Shown here piece after piece: positions 49,215 through 60,533 of a stretch of 61,870 nt of DNA. Below the pieces are notes generated by a model, which worked only from the letters and a program-made list of their open reading frames with translations, did not search any database and was not told the origin of the DNA. Position 1 is the first letter of the stretch, and every line of letters starts with the position of its first letter. Source of the stretch: Candidatus Helarchaeota archaeon. GTDB lineage: Archaea > Asgardarchaeota > Lokiarchaeia > Helarchaeales > RDOG01. The stretch lies in contig JALGVI010000008.1 of the NCBI GenBank assembly GCA_029838215.1, positions 1-61,870 on the forward strand. Direction: 5' to 3'. The translations under genes were made by a program, and so were the position numbers.

Positions 49215-49697
49215 ATGAAGCAAATAAGCGTGATAGGAGCTGGTGTATTGCAGGATCGTAGAATATATGAATTCACGCGTGAATTGGGACGCGCTTTGGC
49301 GAAAAACGGGTATATCGTGGTCTGTGGCGGAAAAGGTGGTGTAATGGAAGCTGTTTGCAGGGGAGTTCATGACGAAAATGGTATTTCTGTCGCAATTTTG
49401 CCAAGCATTAATGATGAAGAAGCTAACGAATATGCCTTCATAAGAATTCCCACGGGTCTTGGAGAAGAACGGAACAGGTTAGTCGTCCAATCTGCTTCCG
49501 TGATCATTTGCATTGCAGGTGAACGCGGCACGCGAATGGAGGCAAAATATGCGCTAAAATTGAAAAAACCCCTAATAACGGTTCCACATACAGGTGGTGT
49601 TTCGGAAGAATTTAGCACTTTGGTTTCCGATAACATGCATGTTGCTAATGATATTAAAGAAATTCTGACACTTCTTAAAGAGATCACGAAAAATTGA
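49215..49697 (+). CDS. TIGR00725/LOG-family Rossmann-fold protein
   Basis: 160 residues: ISVIGAGVLQDRRIYEFTRELG, then VVCGGKGGVMEAVCRGVHDENG, and later GEERNRLVVQSASVIICIAG and GTRMEAKYALKLKKP. This is the SLOG-like family related to LOG nucleotide 5'-monophosphate phosphoribohydrolases, with an altered PGGxGT motif (AGERGT). Its substrate is probably a nucleotide derivative. Its end overlaps the convergent kinase gene by 14 nt. Confidence 0.88.
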   Translation: MKQISVIGAGVLQDRRIYEFTRELGRALAKNGYIVVCGGKGGVMEAVCRGVHDENGISVAILPSINDEEANEYAFIRIPTGLGEERNRLVVQSASVIICIAGERGTRMEAKYALKLKKPLITVPHTGGVSEEFSTLVSDNMHVANDIKEILTLLKEITKN

Positions 49698-50238
49698 CTT
49701 GCTTTTTCTCACCACGCCAATGACGGATTAACTGTTCGTACATTTTTTCTAGACTCTCATTGGCATTAATATAAATAATGTCATCAAGATGTTCCCTCCA
49801 AGTTGGTAACTCAATTTTTTCAAAATATTCCGTTATTATTTCTTCGGGAACCTGACGGTGATTTCGTTCTTGATTTCTTTTTAGAGCGATTTCCAAGCGG
49901 GCTTGCAGGAAGATGATCCAAACGGCACCTTTTTCATACTTTGCTAAGGAAATGAATCTTTTTCTGTATGAGCGCAAATAATTCGTGCTATCTAAAATGA
50001 CGATCTTTTCTTTTTGCAATTCTTCAGCAACTCGGTCTTCAATGGTCTGCCATGTATTTTCCTCATCGACCATCTCATAAGTTCCTGTTAATTCCTTACG
50101 TGTTTCATCGGAAGAAATTAGAGAAATGCGATCTTTAAACACGCTTTCGAGTTTTTCTTTCAATAATTTCGAGAACGTTGTTTTTCCGCTGGCTTGAATG
50201 CCCGCTATTAGTAGGAGGGCGCAGTCACCCCTAGGCAT
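49684..50238 (-). CDS. PSTK/KTI12-like P-loop kinase
   Basis: About 184 residues from ATG 50238, which has GGTGAT 8 nt upstream. The P-loop GIQASGKTTFSKLLKEKL, a Walker B-like VILDSTNYLRSYRKRFISLA and a helical lid (RNQERNHRQVPEEIITEYFEKIELP) match the L-seryl-tRNA(Sec) kinase/KTI12 group of P-loop kinases. The substrate may be a tRNA or small molecule. No selenocysteine machinery is present in the window, so a PSTK function is not proven. Confidence 0.8.
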   Translation of the reverse strand: MPRGDCALLLIAGIQASGKTTFSKLLKEKLESVFKDRISLISSDETRKELTGTYEMVDEENTWQTIEDRVAEELQKEKIVILDSTNYLRSYRKRFISLAKYEKGAVWIIFLQARLEIALKRNQERNHRQVPEEIITEYFEKIELPTWREHLDDIIYINANESLEKMYEQLIRHWRGEKKQVNFS

Positions 50239-50351
50239 GGAATAAATCACCATTTTTTATAGAGATAAATCAGAGATACAGATTTTTATGATGTGATAAT
50301 ATAAAAACATAAAGAAAAAAAACCGGTGTTTTTTAAAGATTTTAGACGAAT

Positions 50352-52443: not shown

Positions 52444-55400
52444 TTACCATTCGTTTCTCTCTTCTCTCATTTTAGCTCTATCTATATATTGATCCAACTC
52501 TGCGAGATATTCATTAAGCCATTGTAGAACATTATTATTAGTTTCATCTAGTTTCAATTTAGAGAATTTTTCCTTCTTTTTTTGATAGTGAAGACTAGCT
52601 GGTGGTCTATAAATCTCTGTTCCTGTTGTAAAATTGATTAATAATTCTATACGGACATCTTCCAAATGTCCATATCGTTTTAACACTTTGTAGGACAATG
52701 TGGGATTATTATTGTCATCATAAAGAGCACGTGGAGCATATCTCGCAATAAGTGATGCTCTATTTTGCTCATCCTCATCAATCCAACCCCATATTAATTT
52801 TAAGGGTATTAAAGAAAGAAAGTTCTTTCTTTGCATCCAATTTAATAACCAGAAAGATCTAGAGTCATGTTGGTATTTATCGATAATAAAATACTGCGTT
52901 ATTGATTTCCAAATTTGCTCTGGGAATTTTTTTCCAAAATCTATCAAAAAATTATTTATATAAGAGTCATATCCTTCAATGATTGTTCCCTCTTCACGAA
53001 AATGCTGGAATATAATTTCAACAATTGTAATACTTTCATTTGGATATAATTCAAAGAATTTAGAAGCGATCCTATACCAATAGAAAGAATCCATGTTGCT
53101 GAATTTATATTCAATATTCTTTCGAAACAACCGTTCATCTGTAAGTAATTTTAATGTTAATTCCTTCGGAAGTATTTTCTCTGAATCATGTTGTACATAA
53201 TAGGAAAAATAAAAATCGAGAATTAATGCAATTGCTTCAGTTCTAGGTGTTTCAATTAATAATTTCAACCATTTATTGAATGTATCTTCTGACATTGCCT
53301 GAGATCTGTGTCCAAGATATGAATCCTGTAATTGTTTGAGTGTAATGGCACCATTCTTATAGAGATTTAAAATCCTAAGAACAGATCTATCAGTTACACC
53401 TGATCGTTGAGAAAGTTGAAAAACCAACTCAAAATATTTTTCCTGTTTATATAAATCATCCAGAATTTTTTCCCATTCCTCTCTATTTCTTTCAAAGATT
53501 GAACGAAAATAGCCGTTTATTAGGGAATAATTAATCGGTTCCTCTTTAGATTCTATGAATTTAAGAAGATTTGGTAAAAGTGAAAGAATTTCATCCTTTT
53601 TACCCAATTCATAGCCAAAAAAATAAGCTTTATTTGCTTGATCTGTTAATAACCAAGTTAATTCGGACCTTAATAAAGCAGGATTCTTTATTGCATCCTT
53701 TGCTAATTGTTGAATTTGGTTTCTAGCTTCACCTATTGGTAAACCATCTCGATCAATATCGTCTTCAAAAAGCAGACTCATACCGACATATCGTTTTAAA
53801 AGGGAGGGAAAATCGTTTCCTGTCAGTTCTTCCTTCAATTTAGTCCATCTGACCAGAATGTCATCTGTTAACAAGCCCTTTTCAAAATGTAAGAGTTCAC
53901 TAATGCGATTAAGTAACATTTCCCTATTGCAGAATTTTCTTTTCGAGAGAGTTTTGATGGTCTTAAAAACAATCGTTTGGAATTCTGATTTAGTTCCTAG
54001 ACTTCTGATTTTATTAATTAATATATTACAAGCTTCAGCTTGCAAATTTTCTTCTAGTTTGTCAATCTCACTTTCTAATAGACTCCAGATAGCGCGATGT
54101 CCTTGAATCCACTCTTCATAGGATTTAGGAGTCCAAAATTGTTCGTCTTTTGGGAAGCCGTAATTAATATTATCGATTACTCTAACAAATCTACGGACCT
54201 GTAAAGCTCTTTCACAGGCTTTAAGAACTAACATTTGGCGATCCTTTATGCCTGAATTGAATGCATCTTTAATAATTGGTAACCTTTCGAGGGGTGAAGC
54301 CGCAGTTGGAGCGACTTTTCCCGGTCCTGGAGAGAAAAGATCAATGAATACACCTGTTGCATTATTTGCATAGCTTTCATTTTCTGCTTCGGCCAGTAAT
54401 AGGAGAATTCTTGCTGCACCAAGAAATAGTTCCTTTTTTCTGGCGAGCTTTTGAAGAGCCCAAATGATTTCTCTTCGACCATTTTTATATTCGAGTCTTT
54501 CTTCCTTAGTCCATTTACCAATTGTATTATTTAGGCATTTCAAAGCGGATTCTGGATCAGCCTCAGTGAGAATTAAAAAAAAATTTGCGCCTAATTTACT
54601 TTTCAAGAATTCCTTATTAGCCCCTTGAAATGGTCCAGCTTCCCCGAGTATTTCTCTAACCTTTTTCATCGCAACTTCAGACTTCTTAGCATAAGCAAAC
54701 ATCTCAAAAAACCATTCGCGCAGTTTTGGTTTTAGTTTCTTTGAGAAATCTTCTAATTCTATACCTAAACCATAACGATCCCAAAATTCAGTCCAAAGCC
54801 ACACGTGAAATAGCTTTGGAGTTATATAGAGTGTAATATCTCCTTGAAGGATCTTTCTTTTCCTAAGAGTAGATATTATCTCTTGAAATCTCATCCATGT
54901 AATTTGTGGATCTGTTTCTTCTATCAGTTTAGCGATATATCTCGCTTCATTAATTAAATCACGTCCAAATCCAAATCTCTTAAAAATTGAAAGATATCTT
55001 AGAGTTAATTCTCTTTGGACTACTTTTTGGTCGTTAGGATCATCTCCACCTGTGATAAAACGTTTCCATAGATTTGTGTAGTCCACTTCTTTCAAAACAT
55101 CTTCAGGGTTTTCAGGATCTTCTCTTAAATTCATACCAATGATATGAGCCACTCTTGGGTTACCATCACAATAACTGGCCCATTTTTTAGCTAAATCTTT
55201 ACTTACTCTATAATTTTCTATGATCTCAACGATCTTCTCAAGCTCTAAAGGCTTTAAGCTGTAGTACCTTGTAGTACCCGCTCTATACTCTTCTTCTTCT
55301 GGATAAATACTGATAAGTTTTATTCTAGGTCCCCGATTTCTCAATTTATTCCAAAGATTTGAACTCGTTGATACATCTAAATCATCAACAACTAAAATAA

Positions 55401-56253
55401 CATAAAAATCATTATCAACTCTTAAAATCTCATTTAAAAGAGGATTTTCTAAGAAATTACTAGGACGGGAAACATAAATCACCAAAGGGGAAAGATCCTC
55501 TCTCCGAGTGGCTTCATAAATAAGTTTAGTTTTCCCGATCCCTGGTTCTCCCAATATTCGGATATGAATGGAATCGTCAGCTCCTCTTAACTCACCCTGG
55601 AGAGCTGATACCAGCTGGTCCTCATTTTGATCTGGCATATATTCATTTCTCATATCTTCGTCTTGACCCCAACTCTTATGGGTTTGAAACTGTATTTTTT
55701 CAGTTCCTTTAATTAATAAGCATAAAGAAGGATATGGTTTAAAAAATCCAATCAGACCCGTCTGATCAAAAATATCTATCTGAGGATCTTCATAGTCACA
55801 ATCGTTGTGCAGGATGTCCCTTAAATTTGATTCTGCCAAAACACGTTGCTCCTTAAGTAATTCTATTCCAAAACAAACAATAACATATCTTCCACCACCA
55901 TCAAGACAGTGTTTTATCATTTTTTTAAGGTTATTTTTATTTGGTTCTTTTCTTTCACCAAATAATTCGTTTCTGAGCTCTGCTAGCTGCCATGGCTCAA
56001 ATGTTTTGCCAGATTTTATTTGAAACCCCGTTTGTCCCTTCTTTATTAGACCACTTTCATTTTCAGTATCGTTCTCAATATAAGCATCAATTCCTCCATC
56101 CTTCACGGAACTATCTGTCTTTATTGTAATCTTGGAGGGAGGGATCTCTAATCTTGTAGATTCAGCATACAATAATTCGCGGAATATGATATGAGATTCA
56201 TCAGGAGAGTACCTATCTAACTCTTCCTTTTTAATTGTAAACATTGTTTCCAT
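52444..56253 (-). CDS. Nuclease-NTPase-helical repeat protein, Avs/STAND-like (1269 residues)
   Basis: Three parts. Residues 1-200 form a PD-(D/E)xK-like domain (KDGGIDAYIE with Asp52 and Asp56, then FQIKSG with Gln78 and Lys80; an upstream Glu in a helix is near 26-31). Residues about 205-480 form a P-loop NTPase (GEPGIGKT 235-242, Walker B VILVVDDLD 285-293, a CDGNPRVAHIIG sensor-like segment). About 480-1269 is a long helical-repeat tail likely to sense a target. This is the build of Avs-type antiphage STAND proteins and Mrr-like restriction sensors. No member can be named. It is last in a four-gene operon. Confidence 0.78.
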   Translation of the reverse strand: METMFTIKKEELDRYSPDESHIIFRELLYAESTRLEIPPSKITIKTDSSVKDGGIDAYIENDTENESGLIKKGQTGFQIKSGKTFEPWQLAELRNELFGERKEPNKNNLKKMIKHCLDGGGRYVIVCFGIELLKEQRVLAESNLRDILHNDCDYEDPQIDIFDQTGLIGFFKPYPSLCLLIKGTEKIQFQTHKSWGQDEDMRNEYMPDQNEDQLVSALQGELRGADDSIHIRILGEPGIGKTKLIYEATRREDLSPLVIYVSRPSNFLENPLLNEILRVDNDFYVILVVDDLDVSTSSNLWNKLRNRGPRIKLISIYPEEEEYRAGTTRYYSLKPLELEKIVEIIENYRVSKDLAKKWASYCDGNPRVAHIIGMNLREDPENPEDVLKEVDYTNLWKRFITGGDDPNDQKVVQRELTLRYLSIFKRFGFGRDLINEARYIAKLIEETDPQITWMRFQEIISTLRKRKILQGDITLYITPKLFHVWLWTEFWDRYGLGIELEDFSKKLKPKLREWFFEMFAYAKKSEVAMKKVREILGEAGPFQGANKEFLKSKLGANFFLILTEADPESALKCLNNTIGKWTKEERLEYKNGRREIIWALQKLARKKELFLGAARILLLLAEAENESYANNATGVFIDLFSPGPGKVAPTAASPLERLPIIKDAFNSGIKDRQMLVLKACERALQVRRFVRVIDNINYGFPKDEQFWTPKSYEEWIQGHRAIWSLLESEIDKLEENLQAEACNILINKIRSLGTKSEFQTIVFKTIKTLSKRKFCNREMLLNRISELLHFEKGLLTDDILVRWTKLKEELTGNDFPSLLKRYVGMSLLFEDDIDRDGLPIGEARNQIQQLAKDAIKNPALLRSELTWLLTDQANKAYFFGYELGKKDEILSLLPNLLKFIESKEEPINYSLINGYFRSIFERNREEWEKILDDLYKQEKYFELVFQLSQRSGVTDRSVLRILNLYKNGAITLKQLQDSYLGHRSQAMSEDTFNKWLKLLIETPRTEAIALILDFYFSYYVQHDSEKILPKELTLKLLTDERLFRKNIEYKFSNMDSFYWYRIASKFFELYPNESITIVEIIFQHFREEGTIIEGYDSYINNFLIDFGKKFPEQIWKSITQYFIIDKYQHDSRSFWLLNWMQRKNFLSLIPLKLIWGWIDEDEQNRASLIARYAPRALYDDNNNPTLSYKVLKRYGHLEDVRIELLINFTTGTEIYRPPASLHYQKKKEKFSKLKLDETNNNVLQWLNEYLAELDQYIDRAKMREERNEW

Positions 56254-56277
56254 TCTATTTCATTCCCAATTAGTACT

Positions 56278-57279
56278 CTATTTAGTTCCTTTTCTTTTTT
56301 TCCTTTCTTGGATCATCTCATATGTTTTAGAACTGAAGAATTTTTCTTTATTCTTCATTGCTTCTTTGCCAATTCTTTGTATTTCATTCTGATCCCATTC
56401 ATATGAGTCTATTTCTTTAATTCTTGTAAAGATGAAGTTTAATAGTCCTAATCCATTGATTAATCCATCTTGAATTCCTTGGTCTGTCATTAAAACACCC
56501 TTTTCAAAAACCTCTGCGCCCTCAAATCCTAGAAATGAAGTAGGTTTAATAGCAGAAACAATAGAAATTGATGGAATATGGCAAAAAACAAACATTTGTG
56601 TCCTATCGTCATTAGATGCAAAAGTAGCATCAACTGTCCGTCTTATATATGGTTCAAATCCATCTGGTAAATCCAATTGTCTAGAAATTAATTCTGAAAT
56701 TCCTTTTCTCCAAATAATAATGTAATGAGAATTAATTTCGTTCCAGTTTGCATGTTGAAGTATATAACGCTTCCATTCAACCAAACAATTTTTAATATCC
56801 TCTCTATTAGAATTGAATACCTCATCTTTTAGGCCTAAATTATAACAATCATTATATAAAATTCTCCAAGATTGAGAAATTACATATTTTAATAGACGAG
56901 AATCATATTTAATATTAGTTGGTACCCCTTTTTCATTTATCTGGTAGAAAATTGTCCGAGCAAAATAGTTTTCAAATTTTCCGATTGATTGTTCACAAGA
57001 ATTGCATAACATGGGAGTTTTTACTAAATCTTGAACTCTTTGCTTTGGATTTTCAGCTTTTCTTAAAAATTTAGTTGCACCAGTCTTCTTTATCCATTTT
57101 CCAACAAAATTTGGAATTATGTGACTGATTTGTAGAGTATTTTGTTTTCCACAAAGAGGACATTTAGCAAAGGTACTTTTCCTTTTGTACCTCATAGTTA
57201 TCTTCAACTCTTCGGATTTATTAACGAATTTATCATAAATAATTCCAATCTTTGTTCTTTTTGAATCTATGGTTTTCAC
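56278..57279 (-). CDS. CxxC/SHIIP treble-clef (HNH-like) putative nuclease
   Basis: 333 residues from 57279; ATG 57195 gives a version starting at MRYKRKSTFAKCPLC. A first zinc pair CPLCGKQN, SHIIPNFVGKW, and a second pair MLCNSCEQSIGKFENYF make a treble-clef, HNH-like signature (CxxC ... HIIP ... CxxCE) seen in many proteins of unknown function, some in defence islands. The rest is an alpha/beta region (SHYIIIWRKGISELI, MFVFCHIPSISIVSAIKP). It overlaps the preceding 151-residue gene by up to 47 nt and ends 24 nt before the 1269-residue gene. Confidence 0.68.
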   Translation of the reverse strand: MKTIDSKRTKIGIIYDKFVNKSEELKITMRYKRKSTFAKCPLCGKQNTLQISHIIPNFVGKWIKKTGATKFLRKAENPKQRVQDLVKTPMLCNSCEQSIGKFENYFARTIFYQINEKGVPTNIKYDSRLLKYVISQSWRILYNDCYNLGLKDEVFNSNREDIKNCLVEWKRYILQHANWNEINSHYIIIWRKGISELISRQLDLPDGFEPYIRRTVDATFASNDDRTQMFVFCHIPSISIVSAIKPTSFLGFEGAEVFEKGVLMTDQGIQDGLINGLGLLNFIFTRIKEIDSYEWDQNEIQRIGKEAMKNKEKFFSSKTYEMIQERKKRKGTK

Positions 57280-57688
57280 AAAATAACTCTAGAAATATTT
57301 CTGAAGCTTCTAATGATTTTGGAGTCTCGAAATATTCGAAAATCTCATAAAAAATACTATTTCCTTCTGGGATATACTGAATGACTTTTATTTGATTCCC
57401 GGTCAATTTAAGCTTATTTGGAAACGATTTGTCAATTTTTTGATATCTTCGCTTCGTGTTTGGTAATTTTGCGTCCTCTGAAACATGAATGGGTTCAAAT
57501 TCCCACCTAAGGTTCTGACGACATTCCCAGAATTTTAAACACTCGGGATCATTATATATCGGATATAAAAATCCCATTAAAATTGTCTGCATTTCACTTA
57601 ATTTATTTTCTAATACGAAAGAATTAATAATATCATTTTTTAAAATGGTTTCCAAATAATTTTTTATCGAAAAATTCTTCTCAATCAT
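57233..57688 (-). CDS. Defence-operon protein with KSFPN domain, short copy
   Basis: 151 residues, soluble. It contains LYPIYNDPECLKFWECRQNL, then YQKIDKSFPNKLKLTGNQIK and YEIFEYFETPKSLEASEIF, which align with the N-terminal ~110 residues of the neighbouring 385-residue protein. The domain is unnamed to me and looks alpha/beta. ATG 57688 shares one base with the stop of the upstream gene (TAATG), so translation is coupled. It is probably a partner of the longer copy, with which it may form a heteromer. Confidence 0.68.
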   Translation of the reverse strand: MIEKNFSIKNYLETILKNDIINSFVLENKLSEMQTILMGFLYPIYNDPECLKFWECRQNLRWEFEPIHVSEDAKLPNTKRRYQKIDKSFPNKLKLTGNQIKVIQYIPEGNSIFYEIFEYFETPKSLEASEIFLELFCENHRFKKNKDWNYL

Positions 57689-58830
57689 TAAATAATTGCC
57701 TCCTGACTATTTCTTTGATTAATTGACTGTTGCTTCATTTTTAAAGGGATGAAATCATCCAACCAAGTAACGAACTTAGGATTGGAAGCAAATTCTTTGG
57801 TAAAAATTAGAAAACCTACTGGTGTCTGGATTTTAAAAAAGAGAAACTTAGAATCAAGAGTATCCGTATTTATTTGGGTTATTAATCCATTTTCTTGTAT
57901 TTTTTCTTGAGGCATGCTAATTTCCAAGAGAGATTTCGATACGTATCCATATTTCATATTTTTAGGTATTTTTGGTATCCAGAAATACCCTTTTTTAGAA
58001 ATTTGATTTATGCGGGAAATTAAAGCATCTCTAATTGAAGAATTATGCTTAGAACATGCTCTATATTTTTCAATCTTAAAGATCCAAGAACCTTGGCTTA
58101 AATTTTTTAATTGTTGCTCCATAACTAAGCTATGAAAATATTTGATAATCTTATATCCTTTATATAAAGTGGTTTTTTGCCTGATAATTCTTCTTTGCTT
58201 TATTAAATCACTAATTGCTCTTCTTAAAGATGCATCTGAGCAAAAATTCGTTTCAAGAAAAACCTGTTCTAATAATAACTTTGTTAGACCATATTTACTA
58301 AAATAAATAATCAGTTCGATTATTTCTCTTCGATTTTTCCCTAAATGAAAGATAATAGGTTCATCTTTAATATCGCAAATATAAAATCCTAAGTTATCCA
58401 TTTTTTGAGAAACAACTTCTGAATTAAGGTAAAATTTACCATCTAGGGATTTTTGAGATATTCGGGCAATAAAATTTTCAAGATATTTTCTGCTGATAGT
58501 ATTTTTTGCTTGATAAGCATCTAAAATCTCATAAACTTCTTTTTTTGAGCGCGGTTTATTAAGAAATTCAAAAATTTGATAACATTTTTCAGACTGATCT
58601 GGCTTATAATAATAAATCGAAATGCTATTTCGAGTTAATTCAATCCGATTGGGAAATGATTTATAGAGATCTGGGTATGATTTTAAAGAAGTTCCTTTAC
58701 TGGATTGTTTAATTGCTGTCTCTAAATGTAAAATTCGCGAAATTTCCCTATTTTCCCAAAAAGCACTGGCTTCATCACTATTATAAAGGTTCTTTGTTTT
58801 TTCGATTAAAATCGTTCTGAATTCTTCCAT
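57688..58830 (-). CDS. Defence-operon protein with KSFPN domain and winged-helix-like region
   Basis: About 380 residues from ATG 58830, behind GGTGAT 8 nt upstream; TTG 58845 is a longer frame. The N-terminal ~110 residues share the KSFPN domain with the 151-residue protein. The middle (about 190-250, ASLRRAISDLIKQRRIIRQKTTLYKGYK) looks like a winged-helix DNA-binding fold. The C-terminus includes FFKIQTPVGFLIFTKEFA. It is first in the operon, and a regulator or sensor of the system is likely. No family named. Confidence 0.7.
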   Translation of the reverse strand: MEEFRTILIEKTKNLYNSDEASAFWENREISRILHLETAIKQSSKGTSLKSYPDLYKSFPNRIELTRNSISIYYYKPDQSEKCYQIFEFLNKPRSKKEVYEILDAYQAKNTISRKYLENFIARISQKSLDGKFYLNSEVVSQKMDNLGFYICDIKDEPIIFHLGKNRREIIELIIYFSKYGLTKLLLEQVFLETNFCSDASLRRAISDLIKQRRIIRQKTTLYKGYKIIKYFHSLVMEQQLKNLSQGSWIFKIEKYRACSKHNSSIRDALISRINQISKKGYFWIPKIPKNMKYGYVSKSLLEISMPQEKIQENGLITQINTDTLDSKFLFFKIQTPVGFLIFTKEFASNPKFVTWLDDFIPLKMKQQSINQRNSQEAII

Positions 58831-58941
58831 TTCTTTTATCACCAATAGGTCGAGATTTTAAGGTTAGTGTTTCTCACTAGTCTGTGGCTAGGTACGCTTT
58901 TAAAGTCGGACATTTTTCCTCGATAATATAATGAGCGTAAT

Positions 58942-59340
58942 CTAGTGAGTCTCGCCATTTTTCCTTTCTCCTCTTTTCATTTCTTCATATTGACCCTTCA
59001 ATAAGCGGATTTGGAACCTCCAAAACTCTGCCGAAGTCATGAACCCCGCCTTTTTTAAGCACTCCTTAAATTCCATGTTCACGTCCTCTGGAACCGTAAA
59101 AGAATACATCTTCCACTCGATTTCGGGCGAATCTCGACACTCTCGAATGAATTCCTTGATTGTCGCATGAATCCACTTCGAAATTTTCGTATGATCTTTT
59201 TTTATCGCCCGAACTAACGCTTTCAAATCTAATTCTTTGGGAATCTTAAACCCATTCTTGACTTTTTCAGGCTGATTTTCGACCTTAATGGGTTCTGAAA
59301 TGAAGAAGTCCTTCAAGGATTTATGTCGTTTAGAATCCAC
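58942..59340 (-). CDS. Unrecognised basic protein, 132 residues
   Basis: GTG 59340. The first ~40 residues are disordered-looking and charged. Then LDLKALVRAIKKDHTKISKW, a helical stretch, and FTVPEDVNMEFKECLKKAG with SAEFWRFQIRLLKG, which hints at two short helical DNA-binding elements (RHH-like: F-T-V-P-E-x-V strand followed by two helices). This may be a regulator of the defence operon, 111 nt upstream of it. No strong ribosome site. Confidence 0.55.
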   Translation of the reverse strand: MDSKRHKSLKDFFISEPIKVENQPEKVKNGFKIPKELDLKALVRAIKKDHTKISKWIHATIKEFIRECRDSPEIEWKMYSFTVPEDVNMEFKECLKKAGFMTSAEFWRFQIRLLKGQYEEMKRGERKNGETH

Positions 59341-59550: not shown

Positions 59551-59603
59551 TATAGTCTGCTAAAGATTACTTAAATCAAAATAAGCGTGGGGATAATTTT
59601 TTG

Positions 59604-60533
59604 ATGCGAAAAAATTTAGCGATAACTTGTGAATCGATTTGGCAAGAATGGGCAAGTGCTTTTGAATTATCGTTTAAAAAGGGAAGCATGGATCCAGCAA
59701 TTTTCAAGAAGCTACGGTGTTTAGACTGTCCAGCACTAAATCATAAAAATCTAAGACCTCCTGCATATGGAATGAATGATGAACTTGCTGATGCATATAA
59801 AAGTATTGTAGTGTTTAATGAACCGATGGATTATACGGATCCTGATGATACTCTTTACGAAAATTTGACCGAAGCACTTATTAATCGCTCCAGCACCTAC
59901 GAACAATTCATGGCACCGCTAAGAGCTACTAATTCATTTCAAAACATGGAAACCATTAAAGAGGTCGAGACGATTCTCAAAGACCTGCAAAATAAGATCT
60001 TTTATCCTGCCTACTACACGAATGCGGTTAAATGTTATGATGAAGCGGTTAAAGATAAGAAGACTAAGATTAAAGAAGCCCTCGAACATTGTTATGATTA
60101 TTTCATTCGAGAGCTGAAAGTCATCGATTCACCAGTTGTTCTTACATTTGGAAATGCCAGCTACCTGTTAATGCAAAAACTATACGAAGATGAACTTCGA
60201 GCTGGGAACTTTCAGTTTGAGCTAAGTCCTGTGGAGAATCCGAGTGGATGGCCCCTATCTAAATCGAAATTTAGTTCAAATCACACGAATATTATAATCA
60301 TTGAAGATAATTTGCAGGGGCAATTTAAAAAGAGAATTTGGGGGGTATTTCTTCACTCCGTTCCATATAGAGCGAGTGCGAACATTAAAGGTGTTAAAAC
60401 TGACCTTCTCGAGAAGGTGAGCAACAGGACGCATAAGCCAGATCCAGAACTAGAAGGCGTAGAGTTCTATCGTGATTCAGTGCGGACCACGCTGCTCGAA
60501 ATAAAGGAATTAATTCCAAAAGTACAACTTTAA
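59604..60533 (+). CDS. Unrecognised protein with weak resemblance to uracil-DNA glycosylase fold
   Basis: About 309 residues from ATG 59604; GGGGAT lies about 13 nt upstream. A Cys-containing segment CLDCPALNHKNLRPP near the N-terminus and VVLTFGNASYLLMQKLY late in the protein recall the C-x-x-C-x-L and V-V-x-x-G-x-x-A strand-helix of family 4/5 UDG proteins. The catalytic GLNPG loop is not visible, so this is only a suggestion. It lies downstream of the direct repeats, transcribed away from the defence operon. Confidence 0.6.
   Translation: MRKNLAITCESIWQEWASAFELSFKKGSMDPAIFKKLRCLDCPALNHKNLRPPAYGMNDELADAYKSIVVFNEPMDYTDPDDTLYENLTEALINRSSTYEQFMAPLRATNSFQNMETIKEVETILKDLQNKIFYPAYYTNAVKCYDEAVKDKKTKIKEALEHCYDYFIRELKVIDSPVVLTFGNASYLLMQKLYEDELRAGNFQFELSPVENPSGWPLSKSKFSSNHTNIIIIEDNLQGQFKKRIWGVFLHSVPYRASANIKGVKTDLLEKVSNRTHKPDPELEGVEFYRDSVRTTLLEIKELIPKVQL

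Follow-up and report, generated by a model that had tools for sequence, protein, structure and literature searches.

The window analysed here is a 61,870-nt stretch (positions 1 to 61,870 of contig JALGVI010000008.1, assembly GCA_029838215.1) from Candidatus Helarchaeota archaeon. Its minus strand encodes a 1269-residue STAND nucleoside triphosphatase (NTPase) with a predicted N-terminal nuclease domain, here called BIG (52444..56253), which is delimited by its open reading frame (ORF), a PADLOC profile match and an alignment of relatives. BIG is genuine and well conserved, a protein of STAND nuclease type whose family, PD-Lambda-4_A, is already known. Three genes on the same strand precede it, and a first-pass annotation of the DNA had taken all four as one candidate undescribed defence system; a four-gene system is not supported. 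The explanation that we favour with fair confidence is that BIG acts without companions, sensing virus, oligomerising and cutting DNA, and that its three upstream companions are a separate, acquired cassette.

Domain architecture and conserved residues of BIG

Residues 1-195 (55669..56253, minus strand) constitute a predicted PD-(D/E)xK-type nuclease domain, recognised from conserved residues and from the way helices and strands succeed one another in the predicted model. They are followed by a STAND core of NB-ARC-like type (residues 197-517, 54703..55665, minus strand) and by a long C-terminal part (residues 521-1269, 52447..54693, minus strand) that is alignable along its length in relatives and is presumed to be the sensor. 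The predicted model and fold search support a STAND fold for residues 197-517; together with the alignment they indicate a P-loop NTPase that carries helical and winged-helix extensions of NB-ARC-like type.

A protein database search with BIG returned 176 matches, BIG itself included, and 26 sequences from the 120 matches listed were aligned with the window protein. In all 27 sequences, the window's included, D52, G54, D56, Q78, I79, K80, G238, G240 and K241 are identical. The first six lie in the predicted nuclease domain and the last three in the P-loop GEPGIGKT (Walker A, 55528-55551); elsewhere in the P-loop, G235 is kept in 23 of 27 sequences and T242 in 26 of 27. The putative catalytic residues D56 (codon at 56086-56088) and K80 (56014-56016) hold up in larger sets. 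An alignment of 40 rows (the window protein and 39 relatives) has Q78 and K80 in every row and D56 in 39, the remaining row being a gap, and in a second set of 49 sequences D56 and Q78 are invariant, with K80 present in 48 and I79 in 43. The predicted model places these D...(E/Q)xK catalytic-type residues on neighbouring strands (57-61 and 73-81). The nuclease domain has no Pfam nuclease match, and a profile comparison with a further two proteins from the phylum (taken to be the Asgard archaea) yielded nothing. Fold searches with the BIG model returned no solved nuclease among the best 50 rows of each, rows that are filled by the STAND core and are therefore not evidence of absence. The nuclease fold and activity of residues 1-195 are best described as putative.

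A LexA-type DNA-binding domain is fused to the N-terminus of three BIG relatives (P0004, P0007 and P0009; two of the 27 sequences in the scanned alignment set). This fusion may tie the nuclease-STAND protein to DNA-damage control.

Relationship to known defence systems

BIG matches the PADLOC profile PDLC03991 (PD-Lambda-4_A) with an E-value of 3.4e-25 and 86 bits, the profile having no curated cut-off in the search used, and the same profile matches 27 of 27 aligned BIG sequences. The description of BIG as undescribed is therefore not supported. Residues 3-771 correspond to model positions 2-767 of 1283, and about 500 C-terminal residues of BIG fall outside the matched stretch. PD-Lambda-4 has a second component, B, beside A. 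BIG differs in having no such partner recognised next to it, and in its likely Asgard archaeal host. In a PADLOC search, PD-Lambda-4_B matched none of the three preceding genes, the gene upstream of them, a nearby uracil-DNA-glycosylase-like gene or the flanking genes, the presence of the B model in the library being unverified. PD-lambda-4 is tabulated in PMC10952713 under the P-loop NTPase family PF13555, and BIG is likewise a P-loop NTPase. The PD systems came from a functional selection in E. coli, and the name PD-lambda-4 does not occur in the main text of that report (Vassallo et al., 2022; PMC9519451). For Helarchaeales, PMC11291487 gives 9.1 defence systems per genome; the terms PD-lambda, AVAST and Avs are absent from its main text and from that of PMC12988326.

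The likeness to Avs/STAND defence proteins noted at first pass is upheld by the predicted fold, the fold search and the PADLOC profile. Avs (AVAST) STAND nucleases such as Avs4 carry a nuclease-type domain, a STAND core and a long C-terminal part in that order. BIG has the same order of domains and likely shares their logic of sensing and oligomerisation, but no AVAST-named profile appears among its PADLOC matches at E <= 10, the Avs models of the library being unverified. Its residues 197-517 also resemble in fold the NB-ARC or resistosome-type ATPases (NRC4, CED-4 and the archaeal structures 2qen and 2fna), which differ in their N-terminal effector and C-terminal part and share only 12-18% identity. 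The evidence supports reading BIG as a STAND protein of Avs-like kind whose N-terminus is nuclease-type, belonging to the family described by the PD-Lambda-4_A profile.

Distribution, neighbours and phylogeny of BIG

A scan of genome contigs yielded 78 BIG loci, comprising 59 closer and 19 distant relatives; 49 of the closer loci include more than 2600 nt upstream. Within 4 kb of BIG at the 59 closer loci lie 438 ORFs, and no family among them occurs in more than six loci. An ORF on the same strand within 60 nt of BIG is found upstream in 7 of 59 loci and downstream in 12. Two clustered genes come after BIG in three loci from Poribacteria (L006, L024 and L032); in L006, the only one of the three to be scanned, they match profiles for HsdS and HsdR. 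This is a defence-type setting, as if BIG were part of a type I restriction operon. Five other Poribacteria loci (L007, L008, L016, L034 and L043) have BIG relatives in a row of MoxR/DUF58/VWA-like genes, named by eye.

The BIG profile finds a match in nine of 227 genomes from the phylum (E <= 1e-3). Full-length matches are confined to the present genome and a genome of the same family (G001), partial ones occur in G073 and G022, and the other five have short matches only. BIG matches were found in 17 of 72,556 plasmid records, five of them covering at least 80% of the query, and in none of 50,697 phage records; a scan of viral contigs gave 103 pattern matches with no relative among them. A tree of 48 loci and the window protein (11 of the 59 closer loci were left out as truncated or as having stops in the raw tblastn span) intermixes archaeal and bacterial phyla. 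The window protein does not group with its Helarchaeota relative, the forks nearby being weak. That relative (locus L054 of G001, same family) has BIG without any of the three companion genes, and neither the A/B nor the SHIIP profile matches anywhere in that genome. Directly behind its BIG gene lies a 395-aa gene (L054:11897-13084), HEPN-like by eye, with no Pfam or PADLOC match at E <= 1e-3. The BIG family is spread patchily over many phyla and shows no recurrent partner in the loci read.

Proposed mode of action

The PD-Lambda-4_A profile, the STAND fold, the conserved D56, Q78, K80 and K241, the varied neighbours and the patchy spread argue for BIG as a stand-alone antiviral STAND protein. 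Its domain make-up and conservation can be read off directly; the activities proposed below are modelled on the known behaviour of Avs-type STAND nucleases. BIG would be held inactive at first. Its C-terminal part would recognise a viral component, and ATP binding would let the protein oligomerise through the STAND core. Oligomerisation would in turn activate the N-terminal PD-(D/E)xK-type domain, which would cut DNA, and the resulting damage would kill or arrest the infected cell and so confer protection. The three preceding genes would most likely be a horizontally acquired, low-GC (guanine-cytosine) cassette placed in front of BIG and not needed for its action.

The genes in front of BIG

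The companions are, reading towards BIG on the minus strand, A (380 aa, 57688..58830), B (151 aa, 57233..57688) and the HNH-like SHIIP treble-clef protein (305 aa, 56278..57195). The span 52444-58830 corresponds to A read from its ATG. A codon-usage score learned from the remaining large ORFs of the window ranks each of the four frames first of six, and the reading of four same-strand genes holds in this respect, as do the 1-nt overlap of A with B and the 24-nt gap between the SHIIP gene and BIG. The overlap claimed between B and the SHIIP gene is less secure: it exists (47 nt) only with a GTG start at 57279, which gives a SHIIP protein of 333 aa, whereas the ATG at 57195, in agreement with the starts of most relatives in the family alignment, leaves a 37-nt gap. 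A could likewise be extended to 385 aa from a TTG at 58845. Upstream of A lies U (132 aa, 58942..59340, minus strand), possibly repressor-like from weak PHROG matches, two of them to transcription-regulation families (E 0.0086 and 0.099). No relative of U was found in the other 221 of 222 genomes.

A and B carry the KSFPN motif and are paralogous, B corresponding to the N-terminal part of A (30% identity over 107 aa, E 4.5e-11; 33% over 96 aa by tblastn), as the first-pass annotation had seen. The winged-helix-like part that it attributed to A found no backing, A having no Pfam match above cut-off, nothing in PHROGs and only two chance-level antibody matches in the PDB. A protein database search with A retrieved only itself among 1996 scored candidates, and no relatives were found in viral contigs, phages, plasmids or 147 relatives searched. 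Pfam, PADLOC and PHROGs yielded no relative of either protein. No convincing relative of B except A was found in the BIG loci, the 227 genomes, PHROGs, Pfam and PADLOC; the protein database, phages, plasmids and viral contigs were searched with A, not B. A profile of the pair matches this genome (A and B) and, weakly, four others of the 227 (E 1.1e-4 to 7e-4). The four were dropped: two that were examined with the gene whole are 575-aa proteins, MoxR-like ATPases by eye, and L096 has no such gene. Faint tblastn matches of A in L033 (E 0.04, inside the BIG gene), L093 (E 0.045) and L095 (E 0.14) were also set aside. The A/B pair is an unexplained orphan.

The SHIIP protein is better connected. 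It matches phrog_26326 (E 2.4e-44, covering residues 5-302 of 305), sharing likeness over nearly its full length as well as the invariant residues of this treble-clef family, in which C12, C15, S24, H25, C64, C67 and E68 are kept in eight of eight aligned sequences; the CxxC...SHIIP...CxxC motif is conserved across the family. In HNH endonucleases the last CxxC is followed by Asn or His, and the SHIIP protein differs in having Glu at this place. The Pfam HNH_5 model scores 16.2 bits, under its cut-off of 27.5, and SHIIP relatives likewise stay below the HNH cut-offs. A structure predicted from a two-row alignment has a predicted local distance difference test score of 38.1, which makes it unusable for judging a beta-beta-alpha-metal fold. 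Of the two nucleases originally proposed, BIG keeps its nuclease-type residues; the SHIIP family retains zinc-type cysteines and a histidine, and the SHIIP protein is at most a putative second active nuclease.

SHIIP genes occur in 11 of 72,556 plasmid records at E <= 1 (four covering more than 80% of the query), in one phage record, and in three of the 227 genomes of the phylum (this one, G018 and G074), one match being a mere fragment; of the three, only the present genome counts among the nine that match the BIG profile. In G018 a SHIIP remnant with no complete reading frame stands head to head with a 1483-aa STAND-like protein (L094:5360-9811, minus strand), which has a NACHT-like P-loop just under cut-off and a PADLOC endonuclease effector match (E 1.3e-8). 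The N-terminus of this protein matches endonuclease effector profiles, one of them SAVED/PDDEXK. In G074 an intact SHIIP gene (336 aa, stops preceding its ATG) follows a gene with a nuclease-like N-terminus by eye, which has no profile match. SHIIP genes adjoin nuclease or STAND-type genes in all three genomes, one by eye and one as a broken remnant, which is suggestive and not a test. Close to the SHIIP gene of one plasmid record lie genes for a cytosine methyltransferase and an AlwI-type restriction enzyme. When the neighbourhoods in eight of the 11 plasmid records, L093, L094 and the end of the window were compared, the SHIIP gene was the common gene, and the only other match at E <= 1e-4 was one weak pair, L088/L092.

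Base composition sets the companions apart. GC is 0.284 in A, 0.285 in B and 0.301 in the SHIIP gene, against a mean of 0.381 (standard deviation 0.021) for 2-kb windows before 52 kb, and the minimum, at 56501-58500, lies 4.35 standard deviations below that mean. The contrast suggests a shared source, unlike the host's, for all three companions. BIG is also low in GC (0.339), less so than these three, and U (0.401) probably lies outside the low-GC cassette on account of its composition.

Cassette, mobile cargo or defence unit

It is possible, if short of probable, that the three genes belong to a mobile element such as a virus, plasmid or homing-type element, as its cargo or its remains, and have no role in defence. 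The lowest GC of the window falls on them, the SHIIP protein matches a phage-protein family and plasmid genes, orphans such as A and B are common in mobile elements, and the SHIIP copy of G018 is a remnant that lacks a complete reading frame. Against this, Pfam recognised no mobile-element gene in the flanking genes scanned, and no convincing flanking repeats or element ends were found, the candidates being short repeats in two copies and inverted matches lying far apart. Scans of viral contigs, made with single proteins and so sensitive to close relatives alone, gave nothing, and a single phage record matched the SHIIP gene.

An integrated four-gene system, with A and B as sensors or regulators, the SHIIP protein as second nuclease or adaptor and BIG as the executioner, is unlikely. 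The tight same-strand spacing and the SHIIP neighbours in the three genomes speak for it, and, according to PMC12799240, unrelated immune systems recurrently acquire accessory genes. The arrangement nevertheless has no second copy in the 78 BIG loci, the 227 genomes or the 72,556 plasmid records searched with BIG, the SHIIP protein and A. By tblastn (E <= 1), A, B and the SHIIP gene have no match in the 78 BIG loci save for the faint A match inside the L033 BIG gene. In the ten other loci with a SHIIP gene or remnant (eight plasmid, two of the phylum) A and B gave no match, bar the faint A match in L093, and no further shared neighbour appeared beyond the L088/L092 pair. The GC of the companions is also unlike that of BIG. 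Because A, B and the SHIIP gene lie beside no other BIG relative examined, the four-gene arrangement is likely a chance neighbourhood. Another reading makes the three companions an undescribed sensor-nuclease cassette, with the orphan paralogous pair working alongside a treble-clef nuclease, that plugs into varied STAND or restriction-type nucleases in Asgard archaea and here feeds BIG; this is very improbable.

Cell death and the control of transcription are further roles of STAND proteins, and the five Poribacteria loci with MoxR/DUF58/VWA-like rows could be taken to mean that BIG is a host signalling or cell-fate ATPase and not antiviral, but the PD-Lambda-4_A match, the retained nuclease-type residues, the type I restriction neighbours and the patchy cross-phylum spread make this highly unlikely.

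Genomic setting

The contig belongs to a 3.62-Mb draft genome and looks chromosomal, carrying genes for histidyl-tRNA synthetase, UvrC, a histidine-biosynthesis protein and a Ras-family GTPase. A uracil-DNA-glycosylase-like protein (59601-60533, plus strand; 23.8 bits against a Pfam cut-off of 24.3) is encoded divergently from the operon. On the far side of BIG, a KTI12/AAA_33-type P-loop kinase-like gene (49684-50253, minus strand; Pfam E 5.7e-22) has marginal PADLOC matches to PtuA and VakA (E 6e-4 to 7e-4), which probably reflect only the common P-loop. Scans with bacterial models, unsuited to an archaeon, predicted 35 promoters (30.2 +/- 5.8 in shuffles) and 6 terminators (3.4 +/- 1.7 in shuffles).

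Implications

The analysis removes a false lead, the four-gene unit having been seen only once, and leaves the A/B pair as orphans to look for as sampling grows. It also assigns a STAND nuclease of PD-Lambda-4_A type to what is likely an Asgard archaeon. Since the BIG family extends across many phyla without a recurrent partner in the loci read, a one-gene version of the defence becomes testable.
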